A DNA stretch of 64,000 nt, from NCBI RefSeq assembly GCF_001511835.1, contig NZ_LN997848.1:1612001-1676000 (forward strand), in the 5' to 3' direction. Source of the stretch: Magnetospirillum sp. XM-1 (GTDB taxonomy: Bacteria > Pseudomonadota > Alphaproteobacteria > Rhodospirillales > Magnetospirillaceae). Of the stretch, positions 2,721-17,946 are shown piece after piece; positions within the stretch are counted from its first letter, which is position 1, and every line of letters starts with the position of its first letter. Both the position numbers and the translations under genes were made by a program. The notes below the pieces were generated by a model. It made no database searches and was not told the DNA's origin. It was given only the letters and a program-made list of their open reading frames with translations.

Positions 2721-2733
2721 GTGCGGGACGGGG

Positions 2734-4323: not shown

Positions 4324-4400
4324 GTGCAGCAGCTTTGCAAGTGCCTGGCATTTGCCTTGATGCCTCATCGCTAGCGGGCGCCCCGCAGATTTCGAGTTCG

Positions 4401-4492
4401 CGCGTTTTAACGCTCATACAGCGACATCGGCTATCGAAGATGGATTGGCGGCGGGCCCTTCGCAAATCGCGTTGTATGAGCGTTAAAACGCG
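4401..4492. repeat. 20-bp perfect inverted repeat with a 52-bp loop
   Basis: The arms are 4401-4420 and 4473-4492 and are exact reverse complements over 20 bases. It lies just downstream of the integrase in a 288-bp noncoding gap. A cruciform, protein-binding site or mRNA 3' structure are all possible. There is no T-run directly after it. Confidence 0.75.
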
Positions 4493-4534
4493 TTTTTGAG
4501 CGAGGCTGTGCGGCGGGGATGCACTGTCCGGTGA

Positions 4535-4560
4535 AAACACAAAACGCCGCAACAGCGGCG
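4535..4560 (-). terminator. Intrinsic terminator of the DUF3768 gene
   Basis: A CGCCGC/GCGGCG stem with a 4-nt loop at 4545-4560. Read on the minus strand it is followed by a T-rich tract (complement of 4535-4544). It lies 52 bp past the stop of the gene at 4612-4938. Confidence 0.65.
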
Positions 4561-4611
4561 CTTCATGAATTTTAAGTATTAAAATTTTCTGATCTGCTCT
4601 TTCGGCGCCAA

Positions 4612-4938
4612 TCAATATTCATCGGCCAGCATGATCGTGAGTACGCGAACGGTTTTTTGCGGATCAGCAGGATCATCGCTGGCGTAGGCAATCGACGCAT
4701 CGTAGTAGTCGATTTTCCACATGGCCTTTGTACCTGCGACATCCACCGTACCCATGTCATGCTCGCCATATGGATCGTTACTTTGATCGAATTGATCGAA
4801 TTCACGGACGGCGGTGATAATGGCGCGGCCCAGCCACTCCTCAAGGGCCTGTATGCCGGATGTGATGTAGACCTTGCCGCCGATCCCGTGCTGTCGGAGC
4901 TGGTCATTCAGTTCGCGGATGATTCGGGTGCGTTGCAT
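4612..4938 (-). CDS. DUF3768 family protein
   Basis: A 108-residue protein with the features I recall for DUF3768, a small family common on alphaproteobacterial plasmids and islands: an N-terminal RIRELND-like start (here RIIRELNDQLRQHG), a central NDPYGEHDMG, then KIDYYD and a C-terminal RVLTIMLADEY. The function is unknown. It is followed by its own intrinsic terminator and preceded by the terminator of the next minus-strand gene, so it is a single-gene unit. Its family supports a plasmid-like origin for this part of the island. Confidence 0.75.
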   Translation of the reverse strand: MQRTRIIRELNDQLRQHGIGGKVYITSGIQALEEWLGRAIITAVREFDQFDQSNDPYGEHDMGTVDVAGTKAMWKIDYYDASIAYASDDPADPQKTVRVLTIMLADEY

Positions 4939-4950
4939 GCGATGGCTCCA

Positions 4951-4975
4951 AAAAGAAAAGGGGGCCGAAGCCCCC
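4951..4975 (-). terminator. Strong intrinsic terminator (GGGGGC-UUCG-GCCCCC)
   Basis: On the minus strand the RNA reads GGGGGC, a UUCG tetraloop, GCCCCC and then a U-rich tail. It ends the gene at 4986-5441, whose stop is 10 bp upstream. Confidence 0.85.
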
Positions 4976-4985
4976 TATGGTTCCT

Positions 4986-5441
4986 CTACTTCTTAGTCAT
5001 TCGCTTGCGAGCGGTGATTGCCTGAGCTTCCAGCACACCATCCAGCTCTCCCGCTTCGGCAGCGGCCTTGACGGTGTTCAGCGTGGCGGCCACATCGGAC
5101 AGGCTCTTGCCGCACACCACCGTGGGTTTGGACTTGTTCGCACCGAGCGTCAGCGGCTGATTGGCGTACTTGGGAGCCAGATAGAAAACATCACCCTGGA
5201 GGAACCACCAGGGACGCACCTGCACATCATGGCTCACCTGACGGTGCGATCCATCTTCACCAGTGATGCGACGCACCTTCTGGACGGCGAAGCTCTTACC
5301 CGAAATCGCCGCTTCAACGGCACCGATCTGATTGACCACGGCGGCGATGAACTTGGAGCGGGCACGGGTCTTGGTATTCATCGCATTCCGCGAAACCTTG
5401 GGCGGAGCAATGGTGGAAAATTCGAGGTTCTTGATGGACAT
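4986..5441 (-). CDS. Hypothetical island protein (151 aa)
   Basis: I do not recognise a family. The protein starts MSIKNLEFSTIAPPKVSRNA and is basic at its N terminus (NTKTRARSKF) and C terminus (TARKRMTKK). The middle (PWWFLQGDVFYLAPKYANQP) is probably a beta-rich domain. A GGAGG-like ribosome site precedes the ATG and a strong terminator follows the stop, so it is clearly expressed as a unit. The basic charge and position beside plasmid-type genes would fit a nucleic-acid-associated protein, which is only inference. Confidence 0.6.
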   Translation of the reverse strand: MSIKNLEFSTIAPPKVSRNAMNTKTRARSKFIAAVVNQIGAVEAAISGKSFAVQKVRRITGEDGSHRQVSHDVQVRPWWFLQGDVFYLAPKYANQPLTLGANKSKPTVVCGKSLSDVAATLNTVKAAAEAGELDGVLEAQAITARKRMTKK

Positions 5442-5577
5442 GATTGCCTCCAGGGCGTGATTGCACTGGAGCTAACGTCACCCAATTGGATTCATGGGTC
5501 TCCCCTGAAAGGGAATTACCTTCATGCGTGAAGATAATTTTAGAGATATCAGCCTAACCGGCTCCAAGCATGAGTTT

Positions 5578-5603
5578 AAATGGTGGCCAATTGGCCACCA
5601 TTT
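5578..5603. promoter_or_regulatory. 26-bp perfect palindrome centred on GGCCAATTGGCC
   Basis: Positions 5578-5603 equal their own reverse complement over all 26 bases. It lies in the AT-rich gap upstream of the minus-strand gene ending at 4986 and of the structured region at 5802. An operator for a dimeric repressor or an origin element is plausible. It could also form a terminator-like hairpin on either strand. Confidence 0.7.
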
Positions 5604-5681
5604 TCCCGAAATCAAAAAATAATGCTGATCATGGCGAATTCAATTGGCCTAATTCCCGCATCGAAAGCTAAATATACATGT

Positions 5682-5747
5682 AGGTCAATGTGGTTCAGTC
5701 GACGTGCCTTTATGGGATGTCTAGTGTTGAATATAGCGCATTGACCT
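5682..5747. repeat. Inverted pair AGGTCAATG / CATTGACCT
   Basis: Exact 9-bp inverted arms at 5682-5690 and 5739-5747, 48 bp apart, just upstream of the folded repeat region. This could be a paired regulator site or part of an origin. Confidence 0.5.
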
Positions 5748-5801
5748 GCTTGATTAACTGGATAAGGAAATGAATTTAATTTATTTCAAAGAGCAATTTA
5801 C

Positions 5802-6157
5802 GTCAGGTGTTCAGTCGCGTGTTCGTCATGTGTTGAACAGGGCGGAAGCCCAAAGTCGGGTGTTTGGAGCCCACCACTCTGCCTTGGTGCAGGCCTGGGC
5901 CTCATGGATAAACACACGACGACAAACACATGACGCTTCCCTACGGGATGTTCCTTCGGAACACATGACAGGAACACGCGACGGGAACACAGGACGTGAA
6001 TGTGTAGGGGAATTAGGTGTTGATAAATTTTCAGCTCAACCCGCAGATTTCATGCATGCGGAATTGCATCCACAGATAAATACAAGTGCCAGCAAGGCCA
6101 GTTTCATTGCCTGCCAGTTAATCAAACCAAGGGCGACGTTTCCAGCGTCGCCCTTTT
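5802..6157 (+). ncRNA. Candidate structured RNA (or iteron-type origin) built from nine RAACACNNGAC copies, ending in a terminator
   Basis: Four copies of an 11-bp motif lie in reverse orientation (5802, 5814, 5825, 5855) and five in forward orientation (5910, 5924, 5959, 5972, 5985). They nest. 5814-5824 pairs perfectly with 5972-5982, 5825-5834 with 5960-5969, 5802-5812 pairs imperfectly with 5985-5995, and 5855-5865 pairs with 5910-5920. The variable dinucleotide matches within each of the two inner pairs (CG with CG, AT with AT), as compensatory change would produce. A GGGC-GGAA-GCCC hairpin sits at 5840-5851. An intrinsic terminator at 6131-6157 closes the unit. The alternative is an iteron array of a replication origin. 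Confidence 0.4.
6131..6157 (+). terminator. Intrinsic terminator before the gene at 6188
   Basis: GGGCGACG (6131-6138), a 7-nt loop, CGTCGCCC (6146-6153), then TTTT. It implies that something upstream on the plus strand is transcribed, although no convincing gene lies there. Confidence 0.75.
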
Positions 6158-6187
6158 CCACGTTTGAATTACAAGGAGGCAATTTCA

Positions 6188-6730
6188 ATGAAACAAATAT
6201 TCAAACTTTGGTATAACGCCAATCCAAAAAAGGGCTCAAAATTCCACAAAGGCTACAGCATATCTGTTGAGGTTGATGCCGTTGAAGCTTTTTATCTAAA
6301 TTTCCACACTCCGGATCATTGGTACCTGCAAACCAGCGCCCCGGCTCACGTCACAGCCGAGCTGATGGACAAAATCCCGCAAATCAACGGTGAGCGCGAC
6401 GCTGATTACATGGTGCTCGCTGACTTCAAACCCAAGCTGTATGGCCAGCACATACCGCGATGGACGTGCTTGCTTGATCCGGCAGGCAGTTTGCCTGAGC
6501 TGATCTTTGTCAGCTGGGACGACGAACTCAGCATTCAGTGGTTGATGTGCCGGGAGCTCAACCGAGGAGGCAATCGCCGCAACACCCACGTTTGGCAGGA
6601 CGACTACAACGCTTTGGGAATCGGCGGCGTTCGCAAGCAGCAGGGTGCACAGGTTGATGGGATTGTATCCAATAAATTTCAAGCGGAACGTGGCTCCCAA
6701 GCCGCACCATATGGGAGGTCGCCACTATGA
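6188..6730 (+). CDS. Hypothetical island protein (180 aa)
   Basis: I do not recognise the family. The ATG at 6188 is chosen for the strong AAGGAGGC site 8 bp upstream; it gives a protein beginning MKQIFKLWYNANPKKGSKFH. The sequence is mixed alpha/beta and rich in aromatic residues (WYLQTSAPAH, RWTCLLDPAG, LIFVSWDDELSIQW), without a signal peptide or membrane segment. Its stop overlaps the ATG of the next gene (ATGA), so the pair is translationally coupled. It follows the structured region and its terminator, so it has its own promoter. Confidence 0.6.
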   Translation: MKQIFKLWYNANPKKGSKFHKGYSISVEVDAVEAFYLNFHTPDHWYLQTSAPAHVTAELMDKIPQINGERDADYMVLADFKPKLYGQHIPRWTCLLDPAGSLPELIFVSWDDELSIQWLMCRELNRGGNRRNTHVWQDDYNALGIGGVRKQQGAQVDGIVSNKFQAERGSQAAPYGRSPL

Positions 6731-7002
6731 AATCCAAGGAAAGTTACGGCTACCTCATTGAATTTACCGCAGTGCGCTTCCACAAGGAGTTCATGGATGA
6801 AGTGGTTCCTCGCGGATACAAGAAAACGTGGTGTCCAATTTATAAGCGAGAGCTAATGGGGATGTTCGGTCATGAGGTTGACCCCGACCAATATGCCAAC
6901 AGCAGCTATTACTTGGGCCATTTGCCCGAGAAAAACATCCTGCTCCTCAAAATGCGCCATTTGGGCATCAAGCGGATTTGGCGAGTGGACGTAACGGTTT
7001 GA
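6727..7002 (+). CDS. Hypothetical island protein (91 aa), coupled to its upstream neighbour
   Basis: The protein begins MKSKESYGYLIEFTAVRFHK and is soluble and moderately basic. I recognise no family. The start codon overlaps the stop of the preceding gene. A bidirectional terminator at 7012-7038 follows directly, so the two genes form a closed operon. Confidence 0.6.
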   Translation: MKSKESYGYLIEFTAVRFHKEFMDEVVPRGYKKTWCPIYKRELMGMFGHEVDPDQYANSSYYLGHLPEKNILLLKMRHLGIKRIWRVDVTV

Positions 7003-7011
7003 CAAGCAACG

Positions 7012-7038
7012 AAAAGGACGGCCTCAAACCGTCCTTTT
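7012..7038. terminator. Bidirectional intrinsic terminator
   Basis: AAAAGGACGG, a 7-nt loop and CCGTCCTTTT form a 10-bp stem whose ends give T-runs on both strands. It separates the convergent genes ending at 7002 (+) and 7024 (-); the minus gene's stop lies inside it. Confidence 0.85.
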
Positions 7039-7389
7039 CACATAACGAATAGCCATGTCGTCCAGCTTGGCCTGAAGCTTTTCATGTCGAGATATGCGGG
7101 ATTGCATGTCACCGAGATCACGTTGCTCGGCTTGTCCATTTCCCCCATACATCAACCCACGAAATGCTGTCAGCTTTTGCTGCGCTTTCAGGTAGCGACG
7201 ACGCAACAGCTTCATTCTGTGGAGGTGCTTCAATGTCAGCGCTGGGGGCTGGTTGGGTATGGCCACAACACGTTCATTTTCGTGATCGACAGACCGGCTT
7301 GGCTTCTTGCAGACTTTCAGCCTGTTGAATTTCACGTCATAGGACAGATCGGCAGACAGTGGTGTTTGGATGATTTCATAAAGACGCAT
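7024..7389 (-). CDS. Hypothetical basic protein (121 aa)
   Basis: The protein starts MRLYEIIQTPLSADLSYDVK and contains a strongly basic helical stretch (LKHLHRMKLLRRRYLKAQQK, about residues 53-72) followed by a second charged helix (ISRHEKLQAKLDDMA). No family is recognised; a small nucleic-acid-binding role would fit the charge but is inference. The stop codon lies inside the shared terminator at 7012-7038. Confidence 0.5.
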   Translation of the reverse strand: MRLYEIIQTPLSADLSYDVKFNRLKVCKKPSRSVDHENERVVAIPNQPPALTLKHLHRMKLLRRRYLKAQQKLTAFRGLMYGGNGQAEQRDLGDMQSRISRHEKLQAKLDDMAIRYVKRTV

Positions 7390-7729
7390 GTTGATACCCT
7401 CGGTTTGAGAGTATTTATGCAGATACAGCCATCTGGTTTGCTGTAAACATCATTTTTAAAACCAGAGATATACTATCTTTGAGCGCGCCAACTCGCTTGG
7501 ACAATATCGGGCCGGAAGCAGATGGCCGGCATTCTAGCGTGGAACAGGTAAAGCGGACGGTGCCGTCAAGCGGTGATCCGGCTGCTTGTGACCCATATTT
7601 GCCATTCTAATCGGATTCCAACGGAGGAGTCTTGTTGACGGCGTCTCGATAAGATAACCTTTAAATTATTAGCACTTTTTGCGCAAACCGCACCGTCGTT
7701 ATAGCCGTCCGAAGCATTGGGGATGCTGC
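7390..7729. other. Noncoding gap upstream of the magnetosome-type cargo
   Basis: 340 bp with no supported gene. It separates the plasmid-type genes from the cargo genes and should contain the promoter for the Mms6-like gene. A TTGACG at about 7634 is a possible -35 element, but no well-spaced -10 is clear. An AT-rich stretch (TTTAAATTATTAGCAC) precedes the cargo. Confidence 0.5.
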
Positions 7730-8503
7730 ATGAGTTCACCTGACGCCATGGGCAAGCTCGGCCATCTCAGCGGGGGCGGCGTAGGTGCGTCGAAAGTCAA
7801 ATCTGCAGGCACTGCCGCTGTAAAGCTGGCCACCCCGACTTCCAAACTTTCCGGGATGAGTTCGGGGGCTGCCAAGGCTTCCTCCACCAGCATCGCTCTC
7901 GGCAAGATCAGCATCCCCTACACCCACCTTACTGGGGTCGGCTCCGGAACTATCAACGTGACCTCAGCCGGTATTGCGAACGGGACCAAGCTGGTTTCAT
8001 CCATATTTTCCGGAAAAGGGCTGAGCCTCGGCATCGGCTTGGGTCTCGGCGCTTGGGGTCCTGCATTGCTTGCGGGAACCGTATGCGTTGCTGGGTATGG
8101 GGCCTATCGGATGTATGCTGCCAACCCAAAGGGCAATCCCCGCTCTCGGACCAAGAGTGGTCAAGAGACCGCCACACTAGTCTCCCAGGTCGCGTCAATG
8201 GCTGATGCTGTTTTCGCCGCAGGATACGGAGCATTTAGAAAGCTGGTATCCTCACCTGATGACGAAGCGGCCCTTGCTGCGGAGCTTGCCGCCGAAATTG
8301 CAGCCGCCGAGAAGCTAATCGCCGAGGCCAACGAAGCTGAGAAGCGTGCATTAGCAGCTGGTGCCAATGCCAAGCAGGCCATCAAGTTAGCAGCCGCCGC
8401 CAAGCGGAGGGCAAAAGCTGCTTTGGACCTTCAGCATTCAACAGAATCCAAGCTGGCGGCTACTCGGGCGCGAAAGCGGAAGGAAGCTGCCGCCAACGTG
8501 TAG
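7730..8503 (+). CDS. Mms6-like magnetosome protein with a long Ala/Lys-rich C-terminal tail
   Basis: A 257-residue protein. Residues about 1-90 are low-complexity Gly/Ala/Ser/Thr. Residues about 97-130 hold GLSLGIGLGLGAWGPALL followed by AGYGAYRMY, which matches the Gly-Leu repeat and membrane segment of Mms6 (recalled as GLGLGLGLGAWGP). Mms6 anchors in the magnetosome membrane and shapes magnetite crystals. Known Mms6 ends in a short acidic tail. Here a tail of more than 100 residues, predicted helical and rich in Ala, Glu and Lys, follows and becomes strongly basic at the end (RARKRKEAAANV). The ATG at 7730 is chosen over an upstream TTG. An iron-binding or crystal role is inference. Confidence 0.75.
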   Translation: MSSPDAMGKLGHLSGGGVGASKVKSAGTAAVKLATPTSKLSGMSSGAAKASSTSIALGKISIPYTHLTGVGSGTINVTSAGIANGTKLVSSIFSGKGLSLGIGLGLGAWGPALLAGTVCVAGYGAYRMYAANPKGNPRSRTKSGQETATLVSQVASMADAVFAAGYGAFRKLVSSPDDEAALAAELAAEIAAAEKLIAEANEAEKRALAAGANAKQAIKLAAAAKRRAKAALDLQHSTESKLAATRARKRKEAAANV

Positions 8504-8764
8504 CCCATTTTCATGAAGCATTATTTTCAGAAATAAGAAAACTCACAGCCAGACCCCCCCCCGGTACTTAGCTGCGAGCGCCTCTTACTATTAGAGCAAA
8601 TCAGTATCCACAATAAATTTCTCTGGACAGATTTCGCCTCAGCTTGCGAGAATGAGGCGTGTTATGACATATGTGCATACCAGCCTATATCTCTCCGAAG
8701 GGGCTCGGGGTATCTTCAGCAGAACGGTTTGTCGCTCTGCGTCATTGTTTAGGGAGCTGTTAGC
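8504..8764. other. Intergenic region between the two Mms-type genes
   Basis: 261 bp without a gene. It includes a run of nine or more C residues near 8555, a likely slippage-prone tract, and AT-rich sequence near 8600-8630 that may hold a promoter for the MamD-like gene. No hairpin strong enough to call a terminator was seen. Confidence 0.4.
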
Positions 8765-9781
8765 ATGCTTGACCAAATGATCATGGCCAAGGTCGAGGGA
8801 ACCACCCAGGCAGCTCTCCTGTCGTCGATGACTGGAAATTCCTACACGGTCGGTCAAGTTACTGCGGCTGGAAATGGAATGGGACACTGGTTGTTCCTGA
8901 ACCCCGCAGGAGCTACCGCTGGAAAAGGGGCCGTCGCCCTCAAACTTGAAGGTGCCCGTCAGGTCGCACAGTTGTCGGGGATGGTGGGCAAGACCGTTAC
9001 CATCGGAAAAGCCCCCCTCGTTGCAGACGGCGTGAGCAAATGGCTTGTGCTGTGCCCCAAAGCCGGTATCGCGGCAAAGGGCGCTGCCGTTGCTGCGGGC
9101 GCTGCCGGTGCTGGTGGTCTGACTGCTGCCGCCACCCAGGGCGGCGGGAACGGCATGATCATGATGAAGCTCGAAGGCGCAAGACAGGCCGGGCAGGTCC
9201 AGATGATGACCGGCAAGACTTTCATGGTGGCGAAGACCACTGCCGCCGGGAATGGAGCCGCCAATTGGCTCTTCCTTCAGCCCGTTGGTGAAACCGCTGC
9301 CACCATGAAGGATCTGGTGGTCCTCAAGGTTCAACATGGTGCTGGGCAGATGCCGTGGCTGGTCGGCAAGACCTTCGCTATTGGCGAATCTCCGATGATG
9401 GCCGGTACGACGAGCAAGTTCCTGGTTCTCAATCCTGTGACTGGTGTCGCCGCCAAGGGCGCGGCCGGAACCGCAATCGCCGCCAAGGGTGCCATGCAGA
9501 CTGTGGCATTGCAGACCGCCGGTAAAACTGCTGTGGCGGGTTCGGTTGCCAAGGGTGCCGCTGCGGGCGCCGCCACCAAGGGTGCCGCTGCTGTCGGCAC
9601 TCTATGGACTGGTACCGGCATGAGCTTGGGCCTTGGCTTGGGACTCGGCGCGGCTGGTCCTGTCATCCTAGGTGGCGTCATCGCCGCAGCCGGCTACGGC
9701 ATTTACCGCTACCGCAAGGCCCGGACCACCTCGGCAGCATCCGAGGTTGATGACGCGATCTCGGACGCAGTGACGGCTTAG
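8765..9781 (+). CDS. MamD/Mms7-like magnetosome protein with four internal repeats and an Mms6-like C terminus
   Basis: A 338-residue protein. Four repeats of about 44 residues start near positions 7, 57, 136 and 183. Each runs from a K(V/L)E or KVQ start through (M/L)(T/V)GKT to a W/FL(V/F)L-P ending (for example HWLFLNPAG, KWLVLCPKAG, NWLFLQPVG, KFLVLNPVTG), and odd and even repeats resemble each other in alternation. This repeat is what I recall of MamD (Mms7), a magnetosome membrane protein affecting crystal size. The C terminus (about 275-320) carries GLGLGLGAAGPVILGG and a single membrane helix as in Mms6, then a short acidic tail (SEVDDAISDAVTA). It is thus a MamD-Mms6 composite. An AGGGAG ribosome site precedes the ATG. 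Confidence 0.82.
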   Translation: MLDQMIMAKVEGTTQAALLSSMTGNSYTVGQVTAAGNGMGHWLFLNPAGATAGKGAVALKLEGARQVAQLSGMVGKTVTIGKAPLVADGVSKWLVLCPKAGIAAKGAAVAAGAAGAGGLTAAATQGGGNGMIMMKLEGARQAGQVQMMTGKTFMVAKTTAAGNGAANWLFLQPVGETAATMKDLVVLKVQHGAGQMPWLVGKTFAIGESPMMAGTTSKFLVLNPVTGVAAKGAAGTAIAAKGAMQTVALQTAGKTAVAGSVAKGAAAGAATKGAAAVGTLWTGTGMSLGLGLGLGAAGPVILGGVIAAAGYGIYRYRKARTTSAASEVDDAISDAVTA

Positions 9782-9859
9782 GCAAGACGATATGCTTGCC
9801 CCTTACGTGTTCACACTTCGTGCGGTGTAAGCTCGGCATGGACAGGAGGGCGTTGGTCT

Positions 9860-10663
9860 GTGACTAATGTCCCTAAAAAAGGCCGAAAGCGGGCAGGTTT
9901 CTGTTCCAATGCATCAGGTGAAACACCCTGCGCTGCTGCGTGTTCAAGCATTGTCACGCCCCCATCGGAGCGTAATGACAACGACGTAGAGCGTGGAGAA
10001 CGAGGCACATTCATTGAAGAATGCCTCGCCCTCATGCCCAAGGTTGAAGCTGGTCTGAGTGCATTTCGATCATCAGCAATTGCCCATCCCGAAAGCCCCC
10101 CAAGTAGCATCATTCGTTTCATGGCCAATGGTGCAACTGCCCATACCCTGACGGATTTGGCATGTTTTGCGACGGCGTTTGAAGCGGCCCTACTTTATGG
10201 GGAAACGGAGGGATGGTCGGACAGTCTAACCGAAGTTTCCGAGAAGAGCTTCGCCATGCTGTCGCTTCATCTGGAGGTGGCTAAAGCCGGGGCGGCCTGG
10301 AACTCCGATTGGGACATTGATTTAGTCGCAGACCTGATGATCGCCGCCAGCCCGCTGGACCAAATTGTGGATAAGGTGGCGGATAACTCACCACACCAAT
10401 CGGGCATGAGCGTTGGCGTAGAAAGCTCCTCGGCCCATCTACCCCCCAGCCCACAGATGTCCCAGGTTCAGTATCACAAGCAAACCGCCACCCTTTGGGA
10501 TGGTCGGGAAAGTCTATTTCTCAAGCTTTGGAGCGTTTTGTCACGAACAACAGCGACATGGTCGAGTGTGAAAACGAGTAAGCCTACCAGCACGGTCAAA
10601 CGCCCTAAAAAAGCTAGGCGCTCGCGCGGCGAAGATGATCCGATCTTGGAAGCTCTTCGCTAA
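9860..10663 (+). CDS. Hypothetical cargo protein (267 aa)
   Basis: The GTG at 9860 has a good ACAGGAGGG site 9 bp upstream. The protein has a basic, Cys-containing N terminus, a helical middle (about 48-165, FIEECLALMPKVEAGLSAF onward), and a low-complexity then strongly basic C terminus (VKRPKKARRSRGEDD). The helical part faintly recalls a histidine phosphotransfer bundle (TAHTLTDLACF), but the signature is not convincing. No membrane segment is seen. It lies between the MamD-like gene and a small membrane protein, in the same direction, so it probably belongs to the cargo operon. Confidence 0.6.
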   Translation: MTNVPKKGRKRAGFCSNASGETPCAAACSSIVTPPSERNDNDVERGERGTFIEECLALMPKVEAGLSAFRSSAIAHPESPPSSIIRFMANGATAHTLTDLACFATAFEAALLYGETEGWSDSLTEVSEKSFAMLSLHLEVAKAGAAWNSDWDIDLVADLMIAASPLDQIVDKVADNSPHQSGMSVGVESSSAHLPPSPQMSQVQYHKQTATLWDGRESLFLKLWSVLSRTTATWSSVKTSKPTSTVKRPKKARRSRGEDDPILEALR

Positions 10664-10685
10664 ATCAGAGGGTTGGGAGGATATC

Positions 10686-10874
10686 ATGATCACAAGCACC
10701 ATGACTGGATCGAAAATCGCTGCCGCCAGTGCTCCTGGCTTGGGTAAGGTCGCCGTCCTGATCTTGAGCGCCAGCATGGGTGTCGGGGTCTTGATCGGCT
10801 TGTCACTGGCGACCGCTGCGGGCGGTTTCTATGTCTGCCGCAAGTTGTCCGGTGCGGCCGAACCCATCACATAA
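10686..10874 (+). CDS. Small Gly/Ala-rich membrane protein (62 aa), Mms-type
   Basis: The ATG at 10686 follows a GGGAGG site. The protein is a short polar N terminus, a hydrophobic Gly/Ala/Leu stretch of about 34 residues (KVAVLILSASMGVGVLIGLS and on) and a brief basic end (CRKLSGAAEP). Size and composition resemble small magnetosome membrane proteins and the C-terminal half of Mms6, but there is no diagnostic motif. It follows the preceding gene by 22 bp. Confidence 0.6.
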   Translation: MITSTMTGSKIAAASAPGLGKVAVLILSASMGVGVLIGLSLATAAGGFYVCRKLSGAAEPIT

Positions 10875-10898
10875 TGTCGCACACATTCCACATCTAGG

Positions 10899-11234
10899 AT
10901 GCAATGTCCCATGGATGAGGACGAATTGGCGTGGCTTGCATCAAAAATAGTGATTGCATGGTCTCGCCGGAATGGGATTTCCGGCGATAATCTCCTCGAT
11001 TTGAATGATGTCATCACGCAGTCGATGTGTAACATTCTCGACCCAAATCCCAAGAAAGTCGCTGCGGCTCGTGGCAGCACACCCAGTGAAATCAGATGCC
11101 GGGAGTCACTACCCTCCCTCGTCCATCTGTTCTTTTGCGATTCCTGCGGAAAGATTTTCCGCAACATGGCATCAGAACTTCACCACAAGCGGTTCTGTTC
11201 CTCTAGAGATGAGCAGCACCGTCAATTAGGATAA
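10899..11234 (+). CDS. Small protein with a C-terminal zinc-finger-like motif (111 aa)
   Basis: The C-terminal region reads FFCDSCGKIFRNMASELHHK and continues to RFC, so the ligand pattern is C-x2-C-x11-H with a second H next to it and a Cys four residues later. That suits a C2HC/C2H2-type zinc site and hence nucleic acid or protein binding. The N-terminal 70 residues are helical and unrecognised. The start could equally be the ATG at 10911 (MDEDELAW). The 3' end overlaps the convergent gene ending at 11226 by 9 bp, with no terminator between. Confidence 0.55.
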   Translation: MQCPMDEDELAWLASKIVIAWSRRNGISGDNLLDLNDVITQSMCNILDPNPKKVAAARGSTPSEIRCRESLPSLVHLFFCDSCGKIFRNMASELHHKRFCSSRDEQHRQLG

Positions 11235-11675
11235 GCGGATTTTCATCGGGTCAACTGCGCCAAGGCGCTTGGCCTCTACGTCGAAGGCTTGTTCCCAGAC
11301 AACACGAAGTCGGGACTTTTGCTTCCCAGCCATCGGACCGCTGTTCCAAACTTTGCCACTTGGCCCCAACAATGGACACTTGGGGTATGCGGCTTTCAAG
11401 GCAGCCTTCAGAGCGTTTGCTTGGGCCATAAGCCCCTCGTTCGCAGCCTTCTTCAACCCCAACTCACGCTGCGTGGTCTTAAGCTTCTCCTCAAGCTCAT
11501 GGATGCGTTTTTCAAGCTGATGAACTTGCTTGACTGTCGGTGGCTTCTGCTTCGGTTCGGGGGCAGATGGGAGGACGGAAGCACTGAGAGCATGTGCGAA
11601 GTCCTCAACCCTATCTCGAGCAACCTGAAGTTCGTGTCCCACGAAGTCCAGGGTGTCATCAATCAGATTGCTCAT
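11226..11675 (-). CDS. Coiled-coil protein at the end of the McaAB-like cluster (149 aa)
   Basis: The start MSNLIDDTLDFVGHELQVAR is chosen because an ACAGGAGG site lies just upstream; it is 20 bp after the stop of the VWA-PilZ gene. Residues about 50-95 form a heptad-rich coiled coil (VHQLEKRIHELEEKLKTTQR). The rest is basic and unrecognised. Being third in a tight operon with a coiled-coil membrane protein and a VWA protein, it may be a structural partner of them, which is inference. Confidence 0.65.
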   Translation of the reverse strand: MSNLIDDTLDFVGHELQVARDRVEDFAHALSASVLPSAPEPKQKPPTVKQVHQLEKRIHELEEKLKTTQRELGLKKAANEGLMAQANALKAALKAAYPKCPLLGPSGKVWNSGPMAGKQKSRLRVVWEQAFDVEAKRLGAVDPMKIRLS

Positions 11676-11695
11676 GGAAACCTCCTGTCCCTTGC

Positions 11696-13201
11696 TCAAG
11701 GCTTTGTGGCCGTCTGGTCGATCCGAGTGATGATTTCTACCCACCGCATCCAGTCGTCGAGATTGTTTTCAAACTCGATCAAAAGGGCAACGGAGCGACT
11801 ACCATCACGACGGATTTCCTGAGATTTCTTCACCCCCAGAACCACATCCATATTCGGGCAGATAATCTTGGTGACGGCCTTGACCTCGGCTCCATGAGTT
11901 TCGAATTTGACGCCGTGCATGGAAATATCGATTGCTGGCGTTTCCCGCTTCTCACCATCAGCACTAATCCATTGAATCTCCATGGCTCCGGAAGGCACAG
12001 CAACACGCAATGAGAACCGTCGCTCGACCTTGACAGCTTCGCTTTCCGCTATAAGAAGCTTCCGCCGCAATTTCTCCGCATCATCAAGGGCACCTTTGAC
12101 CTTGGCGTCAATGTATTGGGAGGCAAGGTCCACCGGAACGGCTGGTTCGGCCTTGGCAGCCGCTCGTCGCCGATAGACGATCAAAGCTCCAGTAACACCG
12201 CCCAACAACACAAGAACAATCCCCCATATGGGTGACTGACTGGTTTGCGTCTCCACAAGAGCTACGGGCTGGGGGGTAACTGGCTCAGCCGCCCTTATTT
12301 CGACGGGAGGAGATAGCGGCTTGGGGGCGGGTTGCTCCCTCGGCTGAACCTTCGTAGCGATCTCGGGAATCGTGGTAAGGGCTATGGCGGCTCGATGCTC
12401 GTGGTCGTCCGGTAGGGCTTCCTTGACGATAGCACTGGAATGCTGTTGCAAGGCCGTCATGGCCTTCTGCAATTGCTCAACGGGATTTTCCTGAGCAGCC
12501 ACCCGCATCGGCAGATATTGGGCACCTGCTGCCTTGGCCCAGGTCTTTAGATAATAGGAGGTTCCGGACAAATCCCAGATGATCAGCCGATCACCGATCA
12601 GTTTGGCGATGCCCGGCATCTGGCCTTCGATCAGATCGATATTGCGGGCGTGGTAAAGAGCGCCGAGTTTTTCAAACCGCTTCCGCTTCGAGACCCCGGC
12701 ATCCTTCATCTGCTGATACTGGCGGTTCAGGTCTTCATAGCGGGTGTCCGCTTGAACCTCCTTGCTGAGATAGCCCAGCTTGGCATCCCAAATTTCCGGC
12801 TCGCCATCGGATATGATGATCGCCAGTTTGGTGGAGGGTTTGGCAAAATTCAAAAGATATCGAAAGGGCATCTCCAGGTCGGTCGCCTTGCCAGCCATCT
12901 CGATTTCGTCGATCGCCTGGTTCAGGGCCTTGATGTCGGTGGCAGTATCGCGCTCCACGGCAAGATGGCGGTATAGGGCTTCAGCAAAGCCGACGACTTC
13001 GATTTTATAGGGATTGTCGAAGGTCTTCAGGAAGGTAAGCAGCCATGCCTTGGAGGCAAGTTTTGGATCGTGCTTTCCAACCGATCCCGATTGATCGAAC
13101 AAGATGATAATGTCCGGCTGCTCTTGGGCTGAAACAGGGCGAATAGGGCCAAGAACAACACTGGCAATCAGGGCGGCAGCCAGAATGATGCGAGCAAGCA
13201 T
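11696..13201 (-). CDS. VWA - transmembrane - PilZ protein, McaA-like (magnetosome positioning candidate)
   Basis: A 501-residue protein. A signal peptide (about 1-25, ending PVSA) leads to a periplasmic von Willebrand A domain (about 28-215). Its MIDAS metal site is visible as DQSGS (36-40), TDLEM (near 107) and SDGEP (near 131). A Pro-rich linker and one membrane helix (about 324-343, SPIWGIVLVLLGGVTGALIV) follow, then a cytoplasmic helix and a PilZ-type domain with RFSLR (395-399, RxxxR) and DISMHG (425-430, DxSxxG), the two c-di-GMP-binding motifs. VWA plus one helix plus a cytoplasmic part is the plan I recall for McaA, which with McaB spaces magnetosomes in AMB-1. It is 13 bp downstream of the coiled-coil gene. 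The domain call is firm; the McaA assignment is by architecture. Confidence 0.7.
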   Translation of the reverse strand: MLARIILAAALIASVVLGPIRPVSAQEQPDIIILFDQSGSVGKHDPKLASKAWLLTFLKTFDNPYKIEVVGFAEALYRHLAVERDTATDIKALNQAIDEIEMAGKATDLEMPFRYLLNFAKPSTKLAIIISDGEPEIWDAKLGYLSKEVQADTRYEDLNRQYQQMKDAGVSKRKRFEKLGALYHARNIDLIEGQMPGIAKLIGDRLIIWDLSGTSYYLKTWAKAAGAQYLPMRVAAQENPVEQLQKAMTALQQHSSAIVKEALPDDHEHRAAIALTTIPEIATKVQPREQPAPKPLSPPVEIRAAEPVTPQPVALVETQTSQSPIWGIVLVLLGGVTGALIVYRRRAAAKAEPAVPVDLASQYIDAKVKGALDDAEKLRRKLLIAESEAVKVERRFSLRVAVPSGAMEIQWISADGEKRETPAIDISMHGVKFETHGAEVKAVTKIICPNMDVVLGVKKSQEIRRDGSRSVALLIEFENNLDDWMRWVEIITRIDQTATKP

Positions 13202-13214
13202 GTCCGCCTCCCGT

Positions 13215-14066
13215 CTATTCTAGGTTGGACAGAATGGTCGAACGCTTCTCCGCAAGGAAGTCCTTGATCTCGGTCTCGGCCATGAGCTTCCGCTCCGAGG
13301 CGAAGGTCGAGAAATATTCATGGATGCTGTCAAATTCGGCTGTAACTTTCTCGATCAGCTGACGCCGCAAGTCAGTGACCTCGGTCTGATAGCTGCTCTC
13401 AAACCGTTCCTGAAGCCGCGATTTCTCGGACTCCGTCCACGCCATGATCTTGGACAGTGCCAGTTCCTTCTGTGCGGCGACGGCCTCTTCCATCTCGGCT
13501 ACTTTTTCCCGGCGGCGCTGGTCAATATCCCGATCCAACTCGGCCATCTCAGCCTCAATCTCACGCTGCCGAGCCAAGAGAGTGGTGATGCTCTCGTCGA
13601 GAGCGTCCTTTGTTCGGGTGAGGTCAGTGACATCAGAGGACAATTCAATCACATGCGTTCTCTTGCGGTCGGCCTCCTCCTGAAGGTCGGAGACTTGCTC
13701 TACCAGCTTCTGCTCAACCTCGCGAAGCTCTCTCACACGGGTTTCAGCCGCAACCTTTGTCGTGATTGCAGCATTGATTTCTGCTTGCTCGGCAGCCAGC
13801 TTCTCGGCTTTACGGGCATCCACTTCCTGCTCAAATTCATGGATAGAGGCGAGAAGCGTACCTTCTCTTGCGGCAAGCGCAGTCACCCGAAGCTGAAGCT
13901 CGGCCTTCTGCCGGGCCAGTTTCCCAGCGTCATCGATACCCTGAAAATTTATTGTGCGGCTATCTTTGGGGACTGGTTTTGTTTTGTTGCGATCAGCCAG
14001 TTTGGACACACCAACCATGACGGCCAAAAAACCACACGCTGACAGAGCGATAAGAAGTATCGGCAT
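13215..14066 (-). CDS. Membrane-anchored long coiled-coil protein, McaB-like candidate
   Basis: A 283-residue protein: one N-terminal membrane helix (MPILLIALSACGFLAVMVGV), a basic linker, then almost continuous coiled coil from about residue 40 to 235 and a charged C terminus. The ATG at 14066 is preferred over a GTG at 14099 because it has a GGGGGGG ribosome site 5 bp upstream. It is first in a three-gene minus-strand operon with the VWA-PilZ protein. McaB is described as a magnetosome-bound partner of McaA. The gene order and topology fit, but coiled coils cannot be assigned by sequence alone. Confidence 0.6.
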   Translation of the reverse strand: MPILLIALSACGFLAVMVGVSKLADRNKTKPVPKDSRTINFQGIDDAGKLARQKAELQLRVTALAAREGTLLASIHEFEQEVDARKAEKLAAEQAEINAAITTKVAAETRVRELREVEQKLVEQVSDLQEEADRKRTHVIELSSDVTDLTRTKDALDESITTLLARQREIEAEMAELDRDIDQRRREKVAEMEEAVAAQKELALSKIMAWTESEKSRLQERFESSYQTEVTDLRRQLIEKVTAEFDSIHEYFSTFASERKLMAETEIKDFLAEKRSTILSNLE

Positions 14067-14503
14067 AATCCCCCCCAAATGGCTAACGGCCATATCCACT
14101 CAGTTTAGCACATCCGGTATTACCGCCCATGCCAAAAGCCGATAGCCCCCAACAGGGTTGGTAAGTGACGACTTGTGGCACGCATCAGTCATCTGTGGCA
14201 TTCATCCCAATGGCCGCTTTCGAGCGCTACGCTCAGGCGATTGGATGACGAAGTTGGGCGCGAAGCGGACTTAGAGGCGGAATCCAGAACAGGTGATCTT
14301 TGGAACTGCTGCGGCGAGGTTAGAATTTATCGGAACTCATCATCCTCGCGCCTGAACACCAGCGCCCTTAAAGTTATGGAATAGCAAAACCATAACCAAG
14401 CGCGGATTTCTGCCATTTTCAAAGCCCGATATAGGGGAGACCTCGGCAAAAGGTGATGTGACACTACCCATAGGATGAAAACATAACATTATGGGTGTTC
14501 GTC
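14067..14503. other. Intergenic region between divergent genes (McaB-like and small recombinase)
   Basis: 437 bp that should hold both promoters. A 7-bp inverted pair ACCCATA/TATGGGT spans about 14465-14497, just upstream of the recombinase start, and could be an operator. Repeated TGTGGCA occurs near 14173 and 14200. A 69-codon frame at 14175-14384 has no family features and I do not call it. Confidence 0.45.
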
Positions 14504-15073
14504 ATGTCGCAAGCCAAAGTCCTGTCCGAAGCCGAGATGAAGCGCGTCCTGGCTGTGGTCGCCCAGCAAGGCGTACTTTCCACCCGTAATCGCCTTGCAG
14601 TGTTGCTTTCGCACTGGGCTGGCATGCGGGCCGGTGAAATCGCGGCCTTGAGAATTATGGACGTGGTTAATGAAGGCGGTGCTGTCCGTGATCGCGTCCA
14701 CCTCGCAGCCACCCAAACCAAGGGCAAGCGTGGGCGGACGGTGTTCATCAACACCAAGCTCCAGCGCGAGATCGCTCGCTATCTTGAACAACGTGAATGG
14801 ACCGACGAGCGCAAGCCGCTGATCCGCAGTCAAAAGGGTGGACACTTCACGCCGACTACTATGGTCATGCTGTTCCGCCGCATTTATGACGAGGCTGGTT
14901 TGACGGATGCGCGTTCACACAGTGGGCGTCGGTCGTATTTGACGACGCTGGCGAACAAGGGCGTATCCGTGTTCGTGCTTCAACAGCTTGCTGGACACCG
15001 GAGCATCCAAACCACCCAGCGTTACGTCACGGTCAACGAAGAGATGATGGTGAAGGCGGCTGAGTTGGCTTGA
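14504..15073 (+). CDS. Small tyrosine recombinase (catalytic domain only)
   Basis: A 189-residue protein beginning MSQAKVLSEAEMKRVL. It contains essentially only the catalytic fold, with all four classical elements: Arg in GMRAGEIAAL, His-x-x-Arg in SHSGRRSYL, His in LAGHRSIQ and the nucleophilic Tyr in TTQRYVTV. It lacks the N-terminal core-binding domain of Xer/phage integrases, as do several compact plasmid recombinases. A 17-bp palindrome lies 3 bp after its stop and a near-identical one lies 3.8 kb away, so these may be its target sites. It is distinct from the island integrase. Confidence 0.85.
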   Translation: MSQAKVLSEAEMKRVLAVVAQQGVLSTRNRLAVLLSHWAGMRAGEIAALRIMDVVNEGGAVRDRVHLAATQTKGKRGRTVFINTKLQREIARYLEQREWTDERKPLIRSQKGGHFTPTTMVMLFRRIYDEAGLTDARSHSGRRSYLTTLANKGVSVFVLQQLAGHRSIQTTQRYVTVNEEMMVKAAELA

Positions 15074-15075
15074 AA

Positions 15076-15092
15076 TGTCTGTTAAACAGACA
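15076..15092. repeat. Palindrome TGTCTGTTAAACAGACA
   Basis: A 17-bp palindrome (single central base) directly after the small recombinase gene. Its partner TGTCCGTTAAACGGACA at 18923-18939 differs by one base in each arm. Candidate recombination or regulatory site. Confidence 0.7.
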
Positions 15093-15120
15093 AAAGCGAG
15101 GCCCATACGGACCTCGCTTT
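15093..15120. terminator. Bidirectional intrinsic terminator
   Basis: AAAGCGAGG and CCTCGCTTT form a 9-bp stem around a 10-nt loop. It ends the recombinase gene (+) and faces the interrupted minus-strand gene that stops at 15124. Confidence 0.75.
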
Positions 15121-15123
15121 AAT

Positions 15124-15453
15124 TTAGTCTATGATGTTGGAAATACCCGCTCCCGGCGTCAAGCTTAGAAAGGATTTTTCCTTCCATTCCTTCAACTCCT
15201 TGTCGCTGAAGATTTCTTCCATGCTTTCACCCGCCATAAATCTATCGTGAGGCGTGATATCACCTCGCGACGCGGCTTTGTAAAACGGATGGTCCGCCAG
15301 ATTTCCGAACGGCAGATCGTACTTTAGTCGCAGTAGATTTAAGCGGCATCGAAGGTCATCAATCTCAGCGCGAGCATCCCCGTATGTATCTGGGAAATCA
15401 AGCTGGTATCGCCGAATTTAACGTTCGGCATCGTGTAATAGATCACTTAACAT
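15124..15453 (-). pseudogene. Small gene interrupted by an in-frame TAA at codon 12
   Basis: On the minus strand an ATG at 15453, 9 bp after a clear AAAGGAG ribosome site, starts MLSDLLHDAER. A TAA follows (15418-15420). The same frame then stays open for 97 codons to 15124, with protein-like sequence (IRRYQLDFPDTYGDARAEID, later FMAGESMEEIFSDKELKEWK). No good start lies after the TAA, so the simplest reading is a nonsense mutation in a 109-codon gene; recoding or a sequencing error cannot be excluded. The product family is unknown. It lies downstream of the RFC-like ATPase gene in the same direction. Confidence 0.6.
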
Positions 15454-15580
15454 GTATGTGCTCCTTTATTGCGCCCAAGGCCATGCACGCGCTCTTGCTG
15501 AAAGACCGCATAGCTACTCGTTTGAATTTTGGGGATGCGAATGCGCGACTTTGTGTCGCGCGACCCGTAGCTTCGTCCAA

Positions 15581-16234
15581 TTAAGGGGGATTCCGCTCTG
15601 CAGACTTCTGAGAACGAATGCTGTTTCCATAGCGCTCCAACAAAATCAGCATCTCTCGAAAGCTTCCGTCCACCGACACACAGATGTTTTTAATTACCTC
15701 CGCCGACAATGGAAGGCACTCGATCAGAGAAATTCTCTGGGCATACGTCTCCATTGTGTATGTGTCCGTATGATCGAAGCAAACCGTTGAAAACCTATTT
15801 TTCAAAGGAGGATCGAGCTCTCGCGGGTTGTTCGTCGTCGCCAAAAACAGCGTTGAGTGAGGTGCTCTGTCGATAACTCCCCGCAGCATCATCTGGTTTC
15901 GTCTAGACAATGCGTCCAGTTCATTAAGAATGACGAAGCGCTCGCCTCTTGGACCTAATCCCGACACAAGGCTGACATCGTCCATTTTCTTTTGGAATTT
16001 CGTCGATGTCATTTCGGCTGTGCAGTCGATATCCACGATGCTTTGACCGGTGTCGCCTCTTGCGAGTGGAATGAGGTTGGCGCAAGTGGTTTTTCCGTTG
16101 CCCGGTTTGCCCCACAAAATCAGTGGAGCGGATGTCTTCCCGAGTGCATAGTTCTCGATTGAAGCCTTGGTGAAATCGCTTGGGTAGACAATGTCGCTCC
16201 ACGTTTTAGGTGTGTATTTTTCAGTTAAGTTCAT
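15581..16234 (-). CDS. AAA+ ATPase resembling a clamp-loader (RFC small subunit/DnaX) module
   Basis: A 217-residue protein starting MNLTEKYTPKTWSDIVYPSD, which matches the N-terminal KYRPKxxxDV pattern of clamp-loader subunits. Walker A is LWGKPGNGKTT. The Walker B position reads FVILNELDAL with Asn where Asp is usual. Sensor 1 is LATTNN, and an NRFSTV arginine-finger-like SRC position follows. The C-terminal collar domain of true clamp loaders is missing or very short. The ATG at 16234 follows an AAAAGGA site; it lies 57 bp after the stop of the preceding gene in an island cluster. Phage and plasmid replication or a repurposed ATPase are both possible. Confidence 0.75.
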   Translation of the reverse strand: MNLTEKYTPKTWSDIVYPSDFTKASIENYALGKTSAPLILWGKPGNGKTTCANLIPLARGDTGQSIVDIDCTAEMTSTKFQKKMDDVSLVSGLGPRGERFVILNELDALSRRNQMMLRGVIDRAPHSTLFLATTNNPRELDPPLKNRFSTVCFDHTDTYTMETYAQRISLIECLPLSAEVIKNICVSVDGSFREMLILLERYGNSIRSQKSAERNPP

Positions 16235-16291
16235 TTCTTTTTCCTTTTGTTGGTGGGTTGTTGAGGGCGCAAAAATGCGCCCCCACAAAGA

Positions 16292-17032
16292 TCAGGCGGA
16301 GGCCAGATCGTTTTTGATGATTTGTTCTGGATCTTGAGAGTTCTGCTCAGCAGAACTTTCCGAGCTAAGCTCTTGTTTTCCCAAGGCTTGCACTGCCGCA
16401 CCGACGATTTCATCGTTGGCGGAAAGCACCATCAGTTCCAGTTCACCGGCGTTGCCGACTTTGAAGAAGCCAACCACATAGGCGCCAGCCTTCGACGCAC
16501 CGGGCACGGAGTGCTTGATGGTCGTAATCGGCTTAGCGGGTTTGTAAATCGCCTTGGTAGCCGCATTTTCCAGCTGATTGCTCGTAACTTTGGGCTTTTC
16601 CGAAGTCTTCTTGCGGTTAACGCCGGCGATGCCGCCGTTGGCAATCGCCCAATCAGAAAGTCCGGAAGGAAGAACCCCATCCTTATCCGCAGCTTTGATG
16701 AGTTTTACGTAAGGGCTGGCTTGTTTGCTGTCCTTTCCCAACACCCAGCGCACAACCTTGGTGAGAAGATTGCTTTTCTGAGCGGCGATATTCTCTTTGT
16801 CGCAAAGATTGTTGAATGCGATGCGGAGGTTTTTGTTGCCGGTAATCCGGTTGGAAATAGACCAGCATTTAGCCAAATGTGCGTAGACCTTGAGGTGATA
16901 AGCGCTGGTGTCGCTCGCATAAGCGGCTTTAACCGCATCGAGTTCGGCAACGGTTTTGTCCAAGTCGGTTTGGACGGTGGTGATGATGGTGCTGTTTTCA
17001 CCGACAGCGGCGGTTTCATTAAAATTAGACAT
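16292..17032 (-). CDS. Hypothetical protein upstream of the RFC-like ATPase (246 aa)
   Basis: The protein starts MSNFNETAAVGENSTIITTV after a GAGGAG site. The N-terminal 110 residues are helical (TDLDKTVAELDAVKAAYASD), then comes a basic middle (NRKKTSEKPK), a short beta-rich part (GAYVVGFFKVGNAGELELMV) and an acidic, Gln/Ser-rich tail. No membrane segment or known motif. The layout would suit a DNA-binding or replication accessory protein working with the ATPase, but this is inference from order only. Confidence 0.6.
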   Translation of the reverse strand: MSNFNETAAVGENSTIITTVQTDLDKTVAELDAVKAAYASDTSAYHLKVYAHLAKCWSISNRITGNKNLRIAFNNLCDKENIAAQKSNLLTKVVRWVLGKDSKQASPYVKLIKAADKDGVLPSGLSDWAIANGGIAGVNRKKTSEKPKVTSNQLENAATKAIYKPAKPITTIKHSVPGASKAGAYVVGFFKVGNAGELELMVLSANDEIVGAAVQALGKQELSSESSAEQNSQDPEQIIKNDLASA

Positions 17033-17126
17033 AGATTTTCTCCTCGTTATGTCTTCTCGTGCACACGTTTGGTTTGACTTGTTCGCAACAGACGCGGCAC
17101 ATAACCGTTGCGGACAAGGGTGGTCG

Positions 17127-17193
17127 GAACGCTTTTGGGCGTGTTCGACCGATCGCCCGTTGCCGGGCGCATAGAAGTGCTTTTCGGCACTGC
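17127..17193. other. Three consecutive hairpins between two minus-strand genes
   Basis: Imperfect stem GGTCGGAAC/GTTCGACC (about 17130-17155), CGCCCG/CGGGCG (about 17155-17170) and AGTGC/GCACT (about 17178-17193). They lie between the stop at 17205 and the start at 17032. There are no T-runs, so they could be RNA-processing or attenuating structures, or a promoter region. Confidence 0.35.
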
Positions 17194-17204
17194 TAAATCG
17201 AGAA

Positions 17205-17837: not shown

Positions 17838-17918
17838 TTGCGTGGGCTCCGAAATTTCGCCACTTGTACGCCTTCGGAAGGGGATTTTCTAAGCAACGCA
17901 GATCGACTTGACGAAATT

Positions 17919-17946
17919 TTGACGCCTCAAAACACTAAATTAATAC
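17919..17946 (+). promoter_or_regulatory. Candidate sigma70-type promoter TTGACG-16-TAATAC
   Basis: -35 TTGACG at 17919-17924 and -10 TAATAC at 17941-17946, spaced 16 bp, in the divergent region upstream of the gene at 18013. A direct repeat GTGACGC GA GTGACGC follows at about 17965-17980 and could be an operator. Confidence 0.4.

Follow-up and report, generated by a model that had tools for sequence, protein, structure and literature searches.

A magnetosome gene cassette within an amrS-integrated element of Magnetospirillum sp. XM-1

The stretch of DNA analyzed here (the window, 64,000 nucleotides) corresponds to positions 1612001-1676000 of contig C1 of Magnetospirillum sp. XM-1, whose genome comprises 4,992,477 bp in two contigs, with a chromosome of 4,825,187 bp. 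It contains an integrative element inserted in the amrS gene and, within the element, a cassette of magnetosome-type genes, arranged in two convergent sets. An earlier note, made from the sequence alone, had described Mms6-like and MamD-like genes facing a McaA/McaB-like pair, placed between the attachment (att) sites of an integrative island. The features of the locus are collected in Table 1.

Gene content of the cassette

The left set includes the gene for a protein with leucine-glycine (LG) repeats, mamD and two conserved genes for small proteins. The right set, on the opposite strand, includes genes of the McaB and McaA types and, in some copies, a gene for a small coiled-coil protein. 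The two sets therefore do face each other, as the earlier note had it; its limits for the group of genes (7730-14066) hold for the genes themselves, while the conserved cassette, of 6.5 kb, is slightly wider, about 7636-14181.

The MamD assignment is confirmed by profile search: the match to the model covers residues 2-337 of the 338, indicating full-length membership of the family. The label "Mms6-like", given to the first gene, turned out to be loose. A similarity exists in the LG-rich part only, where scores stay below the family cut-offs (in brackets): 36.8 bits for MamD (100), 28.5 for Mms6 (200) and 20.9 for MamG (100). Identification as Mms6 is ruled out by this score, the true Mms6 of the host magnetosome island reaching 284 bits; on its profile scores, the first cassette gene is an LG-repeat relative, not Mms6.

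The host island is located 0.7 Mb from the cassette, in line with the separation claimed earlier. Mms6, MamD (467.8 bits), MamH, MamK, MamO, MamQ and MamV score there over the cut-off; MamA, cut by the end of the analyzed locus, scores 190 bits versus a cut-off of 200. Any function of the cassette would thus be exerted on magnetosomes made elsewhere. The reported absence of mamAB genes was also borne out: no mamAB family is present among the NCBIfam matches listed for 19 proteins of the element or of amrS (frames of about 90 aa or more), and for the same 19 proteins no mamK-, mamE-, mamL- or mamQ-like gene is listed beside the mca genes.

For the right set, comparison with the loci of strain AMB-1 confirmed the claimed homology. 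Membership of the McaA group is indicated by a VWA domain with the DxSxS motif, by a conserved C-terminal region and by sequence homology; that of the McaB group by homology, by a coiled coil and by the position adjoining mcaA. The AMB-1 McaA-like protein (amb0908), 83% identical, represents the nearest McaA-like group, and the AMB-1 McaB-like protein (amb0907) is 82% identical. Homology to the McaA and McaB of the AMB-1 magnetotaxis islet (MIS) is weaker: for McaA, 44% over 370 columns of the VWA part and 31% over 136 residues at the C-terminus; for McaB, 43% over the last 138 residues. The pair is to be placed among the "Mca-like" proteins, for which deletion in AMB-1 produced no phenotype.

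The McaA type features an N-terminal signal or transmembrane helix and a later transmembrane segment, by eye and in the predicted model only. Searching NCBIfam with 19 McaA homologues gave no family at E 1e-5, and McaB matches an SMC-like coiled coil far below the cut-off. A sequence-profile search of PDB with McaA gave 26 matches, none better than E 0.019, with integrin I (VWA) domains at the top. When whole McaA was used in fold searches, the matches listed concern the VWA part only; the C-terminal domain was modelled separately.

In the model of that domain alone, the PilZ beta-barrel fold is predicted. The motifs RxxxR and [DN]xSxxG, which we take to be the PilZ signature for cyclic di-GMP (c-di-GMP), are both present in 16 of the 19 aligned proteins when the last position may be G or S, and in 15 when it is G. 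Cassette McaA resembles the PilZ c-di-GMP receptors Alg44, YcgR, MrkH and BcsA in predicted fold and signature. It differs from them in that, by its presumed topology, the domain is joined across the membrane to a periplasmic VWA domain. In AMB-1 McaA, amino acids 530-665 are reported as necessary and sufficient for McaB binding (PMC13170167, in the parts available), and this stretch aligns with the C-terminus of cassette McaA.

As for the minor genes, the finger protein (10899-11234) has no match in Pfam at 0.001 or in NCBIfam at 0.01. Most of the coiled-coil gene lies within a 436-bp segment (11246-11681), present in XM-1, AMB-1, SP-1, UT-4 and BB-1 and cleanly absent from five other copies.

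Table 1. Features of the amrS element and of its cassette. Positions are those of the window; "strand" is given for genes and protein domains.
Feature	Position	Strand	Evidence or remark
Host amrS 5' half, cut off by insertion	2257..2574	+	host part ends at GCCAGAA 2546-2552
Integrative element in amrS, att core to att core	2546..19577		GC content, cores, empty sites, AMB-1 and SP-1 copies
Left att core GCCAGAA	2546..2552		direct repeat of right core
Large tyrosine integrase, 570 aa	2611..4323	+	Pfam Phage_integrase, phrog_1
Arm-type-like repeat ACACACAGTTTTACACACAG, left	2633..2652		also in AMB-1 copy; putative role
Conserved left module, hypothetical proteins	4612..7418		94% DNA identity to AMB-1 and SP-1 elements
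Magnetosome cargo cassette	7636..14181		91-96% identical block in 5 other genomes; sharp right edge
LG-repeat magnetosome-type membrane protein, 257 aa	7730..8503 (frame 7679-8503, likely start 7730)	+	MamD, Mms6 and MamG matches below cut-off
MamD, 338 aa	8765..9781	+	NCBIfam MamD equivalog, 408.1 bits, cut-off 100
Conserved cassette protein, 267 aa	9860..10663	+	4 homologues in protein search; kept across cassettes
Small protein, CxxC...HxxxxC finger by eye, 111 aa	10899..11234	+	conserved in cassettes
Small coiled-coil protein	11226..11744	-	436-bp core 11246-11681 absent from 5 other cassettes
McaA-type protein	11696..13201	-	VWA with DxSxS (DQSGS); predicted C-terminal PilZ-like domain
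Predicted PilZ domain of McaA, residues 395-494	11720..12019	-	RFSLR...DISMHG
VWA domain of McaA, residues 28-262	12416..13120	-	
McaB-type protein	13215..14066 (frame 13215-14099, likely start 14066)	-	N-terminal transmembrane helix by eye, coiled coil
Short tyrosine recombinase, 192 aa	14495..15073	+	Pfam Phage_integrase, 93.6 bits
Phage-type clamp-loader ATPase	15581..16288	-	phrog_168, 94 bits
Hybrid amrS: element-supplied 5' half and host 3' half, extra residues at join	19015..20370	+	NCBIfam AmmeMemoSam_rS, 636.6 bits
Arm-type-like repeat ACACACAGTTTACACACAG, right	19500..19518		also in AMB-1 and SP-1 copies; putative role
Right att core GCCAGAA	19571..19577		direct repeat of left core

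The element inserted in amrS

The GC content of the element (0.528) is lower than that of its left (0.699) and right (0.673) flanks. Its insertion splits amrS, a radical-SAM gene of the AmmeMemoRadiSam system. The 5' half borne by the element is 76% identical, over the aligned part, to the host 5' half, and the hybrid gene is a single open frame, whose halves meet at the second core. Directly after the CxxxCxxC cluster, the hybrid contains about 40-47 additional in-frame residues, with the same layout in AMB-1 and SP-1.

Each of the 17 genomes of the genus has a match to amrS. In 14 of them the gene's two parts are contiguous, and in the other three (XM-1, AMB-1, SP-1) they are separated by about 17-27 kb. 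The site was uninterrupted in both genomes inspected, ME-1 and SO-1. Integrase, att repeats and empty sites in relatives are those of a tyrosine-recombinase integrative element, and the placement of the cassette between att sites, as claimed earlier, was upheld.

Common to the elements of AMB-1, SP-1 and XM-1 are the left module bearing the integrase, with 94% DNA identity, the short recombinase, with 91-93% (at 14.4-15.1 kb in the window), and the end on the amrS side; the stretch between left module and short recombinase is not shared. On this comparison, the vehicle has a variable cargo slot, filled in XM-1 by the cassette (about 7636-14181). The large integrase is 98-99% identical to those of the AMB-1 and SP-1 elements; for the short recombinase, identity is 95-97% in the same two elements and 49% to one near the cassette of G049, a metagenome-assembled genome. 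Judged by eye, the slot of the AMB-1 element is occupied by sensor genes and chemoreceptor-like ones, and an OLD-like ATPase and a DNA methyltransferase are encoded further to the right. QueD/QueE/FolE-like enzymes of deazaguanine synthesis, also recognized by eye in that element, possibly serve DNA modification. The clamp-loader ATPase of the XM-1 element is presumably T4 gp44-like; no other replication gene was recognized with it on the element.

Copies of the cassette in other genomes

The block at 7.6-14.2 kb is present on a single contig, with 91-96% identity and flanks unlike those of the window, in five other genomes: SO-1 (L060), SS-4 (L061), G040 (L066), PR1 (L063) and G049 (L067/L068). 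Shared synteny at this identity in other species excludes chance. McaA is matched in 14 of 55 genomes; MamD scores over the cut-off in 21 of the 55 (family search).

Part of the copies are found in prophages. In SO-1 and in an IMG/VR contig (L120) the cassette is flanked on one side by the terminase large-subunit gene and on the other by the portal gene, after which comes a head-protease gene; L120 further contains a head decoration gene (after portal and head protease), an integrase and a primase. IMG/VR, where the queries find close relatives only, returned two contigs: L119 is identical in every letter to the SO-1 contig, and the 14,171-base stretch of G040 recurs unchanged within L120. In SS-4 a terminase large-subunit gene stands beside the cassette, and beyond the LG-repeat gene the contig is unlike the portal side of SO-1. 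Two cassette-free prophages, one in G021, the other in SS-4, have terminase and portal regions about 92-93% identical to these. In G021, which we take to be MSR-1 and where McaA has no match, the slot (L163:9072-15616) contains 6.5 kb with a ShlB/two-partner secretion pair; in the second SS-4 prophage (L164:9606-13570) a type IIG restriction-modification gene is found there, in a stretch of 4 kb. Because related prophages hold such other genes there, the terminase-portal interval of this Magnetospirillum prophage is, on the sequences compared, a cargo site (hotspot). A third SS-4 terminase copy (C74) has no portal gene within the stretch taken.

Other copies are located near integrases. The cassette is 2-4 kb from a tyrosine integrase both in PR1, where the integrase adjoins tRNA-Arg, and in G049, where it adjoins tRNA-Gln; the mca-like half-cassette of AMB-1 is 3.5 kb from an integrase adjoining tRNA-Met. 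The spread of accessory sets on mobile elements, envisaged in the earlier note, is thus supported by the recurrence of this cassette, in other species, within prophages and close to further integrases.

Some copies are partial or rearranged. In LM-1 and WMHbin7 (L128, L127) the mca block is inverted and placed between the LG-repeat gene and mamD, all genes running one way; a recombinase Zn-ribbon gene of LM-1, about 8 kb away, is too distant to count. One half of the cassette each is found on the contigs read in G011 and G012, and the copies of BB-1 and UT-4 are on short contigs and stop where these end. In SP-1, mcaB pieces at several contig ends (L175, L179, L073) suggest that the mca block is present more than once, and a partial mcaB is next to a frame resembling, by eye, a large serine recombinase. 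The PR1 record (G038, L063) is titled Terasakiella sp. and is placed in the same GTDB genus as XM-1: its label or assembly may need checking.

The right border of the cassette is sharp: similarity ends at YTTGTGGCAC in XM-1, the prophages, BB-1, AMB-1, UT-4 and two SP-1 contigs, followed by at least five different continuations. Past the edge, BB-1 and the prophages have 23 more bases in common, AMB-1 and one SP-1 contig about 52; the PR1 and G049 cassettes end about 40 bases before it. The edge pattern GGTARRTGACGRYTTGTGGCAC, with up to 2 mismatches, occurs at 11 places in 9 of 55 genomes. Since nine of these are at mcaB (the remaining two are in unrelated sequence), a repeated insertion-sequence end is ruled out. 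Terminal repeats, as transposon ends of the cassette's own, were rejected as well: only short matches exist between the two borders in the four copies compared.

The relationship between cassette and hosts was evaluated with one control protein, leucyl aminopeptidase, encoded outside the island, over the 45 pairs formed by 10 genomes. McaA identity is uncorrelated with control identity (Spearman 0.002). XM-1 and AMB-1 share 94.6% in the control and 84.0% in McaA; for XM-1 and BB-1 the values are 73.7% and 94.0%, and PR1, SS-4, G049 and BB-1, taken together, range from 74 to 85% in the control and from 93 to 94% in McaA. In the McaA tree AMB-1, SP-1 and UT-4 are separated from the other seven with support 100/100, branching among the seven not being settled; the control tree conflicts with it, grouping XM-1, SO-1, AMB-1 and G040 on one side and BB-1 with UT-4 on the other, each with 100/100. 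The departure of the cassette tree from the host tree indicates that the cassette moves between hosts.

Against other cassettes, none of the six genes tested exceeds a pairwise dN/dS of 0.42. The values are 0.01-0.05 for mamD (0.01 in 4 of 5 comparisons), 0.13-0.33 for the LG-repeat gene and 0.28-0.42 for the two genes of unassigned function; for mcaA (0.10-0.16) and mcaB (0.15-0.30) they also include the comparison with the AMB-1 mca-like copy. By these ratios, the cassette genes are kept under purifying selection.

Proposed role and alternative explanations

That magnetosome genes of an accessory kind occur away from the main island, and that phage genes lie in its neighborhood, was already known (PMC2818848 and PMC9512821, both cited here and below from parts of the papers). 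The closest known system is the AMB-1 MIS, which contains homologues of the LG-repeat gene, MamD, McaA and McaB and is likewise low in GC and away from the magnetosome island (PMC2818848). Its McaA and McaB set the gaps between magnetosomes; McaA, in particular, shows a dashed localization at positive curvature and controls chain spacing, as demonstrated for AMB-1 McaA only, and the islet segment iR3 affects crystal shape (PMC9512821). The MIS differs from the cassette in having mamK-, mamE-, mamL- and mamQ-like genes and many transposases; integration ends are absent from its description, in the passages available, while the element of the cassette has att cores. Its McaA, as distant as reported above, is also without the PilZ signature. 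The order of the MIS, mcaA-mcaB and then mms-mamD, is a permutation of that of the cassette: the mca and mms-mamD blocks (L167, L072) are swapped with the same orientations, as circular permutation would give, which is only a hint of a circular intermediate.

The AMB-1 mcaA-like and mcaB-like genes are alike in sequence and also have an integrase upstream, adjoining tRNA-Met. They differ from the cassette in lying about 20 kb outside the AMB-1 island, with no mms or mamD match alongside; they are described as near magnetosome clusters, and the main text of PMC9512821 mentions neither integrase nor prophage for them. The position between terminase and portal genes in two prophages recalls the cargo slots of morons, or lysogenic conversion genes. 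As a difference, the cassette concerns organelle building, and it is also found near integrases with no recognized phage structural genes.

On the whole, it is probable that the locus is a self-contained accessory magnetosome cassette, cargo of an integrative element, with the functions and the c-di-GMP gating proposed here. The cassette is carried by a tyrosine-recombinase element, which inserts in amrS and provides it with a new 5' half. Each convergent set would be an operon. In a host with a magnetosome island, MamD and the LG-repeat protein may join the magnetosome membrane and tune the crystals. McaA would mark the envelope via its periplasmic VWA domain, and its cytoplasmic C-terminal domain would hold McaB on the magnetosomes, altering spacing and chain position. 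Because that domain is PilZ-like with an intact c-di-GMP signature, gating of the McaA-McaB contact by c-di-GMP is proposed for the cassette group. Each gain or loss of the element, or of a prophage, would then switch a chain-organization trait.

Several results weigh against this interpretation. As to PilZ, Pfam PilZ is absent both from the 25 families listed for the 19 McaA homologues (E 10) and from the list for the window McaA itself; no PilZ chain is found among the 26 PDB sequences matched by the McaA profile; and no Foldseek match reached E 0.001 (the best stood at 0.003), an unrelated protein taking rank 10. In the McaA of the AMB-1 islet, whose role is proven, both arginines and the serine of the signature are substituted; since the signature is absent there, c-di-GMP is not needed for the function demonstrated there. 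Deletion of the AMB-1 mcaAB-like genes, with McaA 83% identical, had no obvious phenotype (PMC9512821). The finger gene is broken in SO-1 by a 1.2-kb insertion. Terminal repeats, which might explain the change of vehicle, were not found in the four copies compared. McaA relatives are absent from 50,697 phage isolate records and the cassette from 72,556 plasmid records; with IMG/VR giving only two contigs, it is prophage-like contigs from host genomes that underlie the link to phages. Finally, two sigma-70-like sites occur in 7500-14300, where 3.4 are expected from shuffled sequences, and neither is at the ends. A conserved promoter at both ends of the cassette, an idea based on position, is not supported by this count.

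Given the AMB-1 deletion, the Mca-like pair may be redundant or conditional, and one might speculate that a c-di-GMP condition is one reason for the missing phenotype. A bolder extension, which we put forward tentatively and regard as possible rather than likely, is that chain organization is phage-borne, transferable and under a second messenger. A two-operon conversion cassette (MamD-type mineralization proteins and McaAB), borne by prophages and integrative elements of magnetotactic bacteria, would encode McaA as a transmembrane c-di-GMP receptor, with periplasmic VWA and cytoplasmic PilZ domains, gating McaB, and hence MamK dynamics, according to whether the cell is motile or sessile. The McaA of AMB-1 would then be a derived form, blind to the signal and always on.

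The most serious alternative, although an unlikely one, is that the cargo is really mobile and yet functionally idle or redundant in XM-1, being kept because the element is kept. The silent AMB-1 deletion, the gene interrupted in SO-1 and an LG-repeat gene under all family cut-offs are what such cargo might present. The dN/dS values, above all those of mamD, do not fit with it, nor does the purifying selection on mca-like genes also inferred by Wan et al. (PMC9512821, in part), and selection for the cargo is suggested by its repeated occurrence on several vehicles.

It is much less probable that the cassette is a relocated, decaying fragment of the host magnetosome island, or of an old duplicated cluster. 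Magnetosome gene duplication is common in Alphaproteobacteria (PMC6819731, in part), and the host island does contain a second, better-scoring MamD. A second McaA or McaB, in contrast, has no match in the XM-1 genome at E 0.01; the cassette genes are intact, with low dN/dS; in the McaA tree, contrary to the host gene, XM-1 groups with BB-1 and is separated from AMB-1; and the block lies between two modules of an element that has other cargo elsewhere. Least probable of all is one ancestral element, whose vehicles diverged by recombination around the cassette without any passage from one species to another. Relatedness does exist among the large integrases found close to the cassettes of XM-1, PR1 and G049 (26-31% identity), the PR1 element encodes a protein 30% identical to that of the left module at 4986-5441, and a DUF6641 protein is encoded near the G049 cassette, but the prophage vehicle differs in gene content, and McaA is too similar in PR1, SS-4, G049 and BB-1 (93-94%, control 74-85%) and too different in AMB-1 (84%, control 95%).

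Phage-mediated transfer of the MIS had been named as one scenario by Wan et al. (PMC9512821, in part). Searching literature titles, no report was found of prophage-borne magnetosome cassettes or of a PilZ domain in McaA, and "PilZ" does not occur in the main texts of PMC9512821 and PMC13170167. What appears new, within the literature searched, is the compact cassette with its vehicles, its recurrence both in prophages and close to several integrases, and the interpretation of the McaA C-terminal domain as PilZ.

How magnetotaxis genes spread has long been debated, mainly on the basis of trees. In this case the vehicles can be seen: an element integrating in amrS, tRNA-linked integrases nearby and the terminase-portal slot of a prophage, with a cassette whose sequence ignores host kinship and yet stays under selection. 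Its copies on several vehicles suggest how magnetosome traits could spread. The Mca story is extended beyond AMB-1, and the McaB-binding domain of McaA gains a predicted fold and a candidate ligand, which, if true, would link c-di-GMP to organelle positioning.

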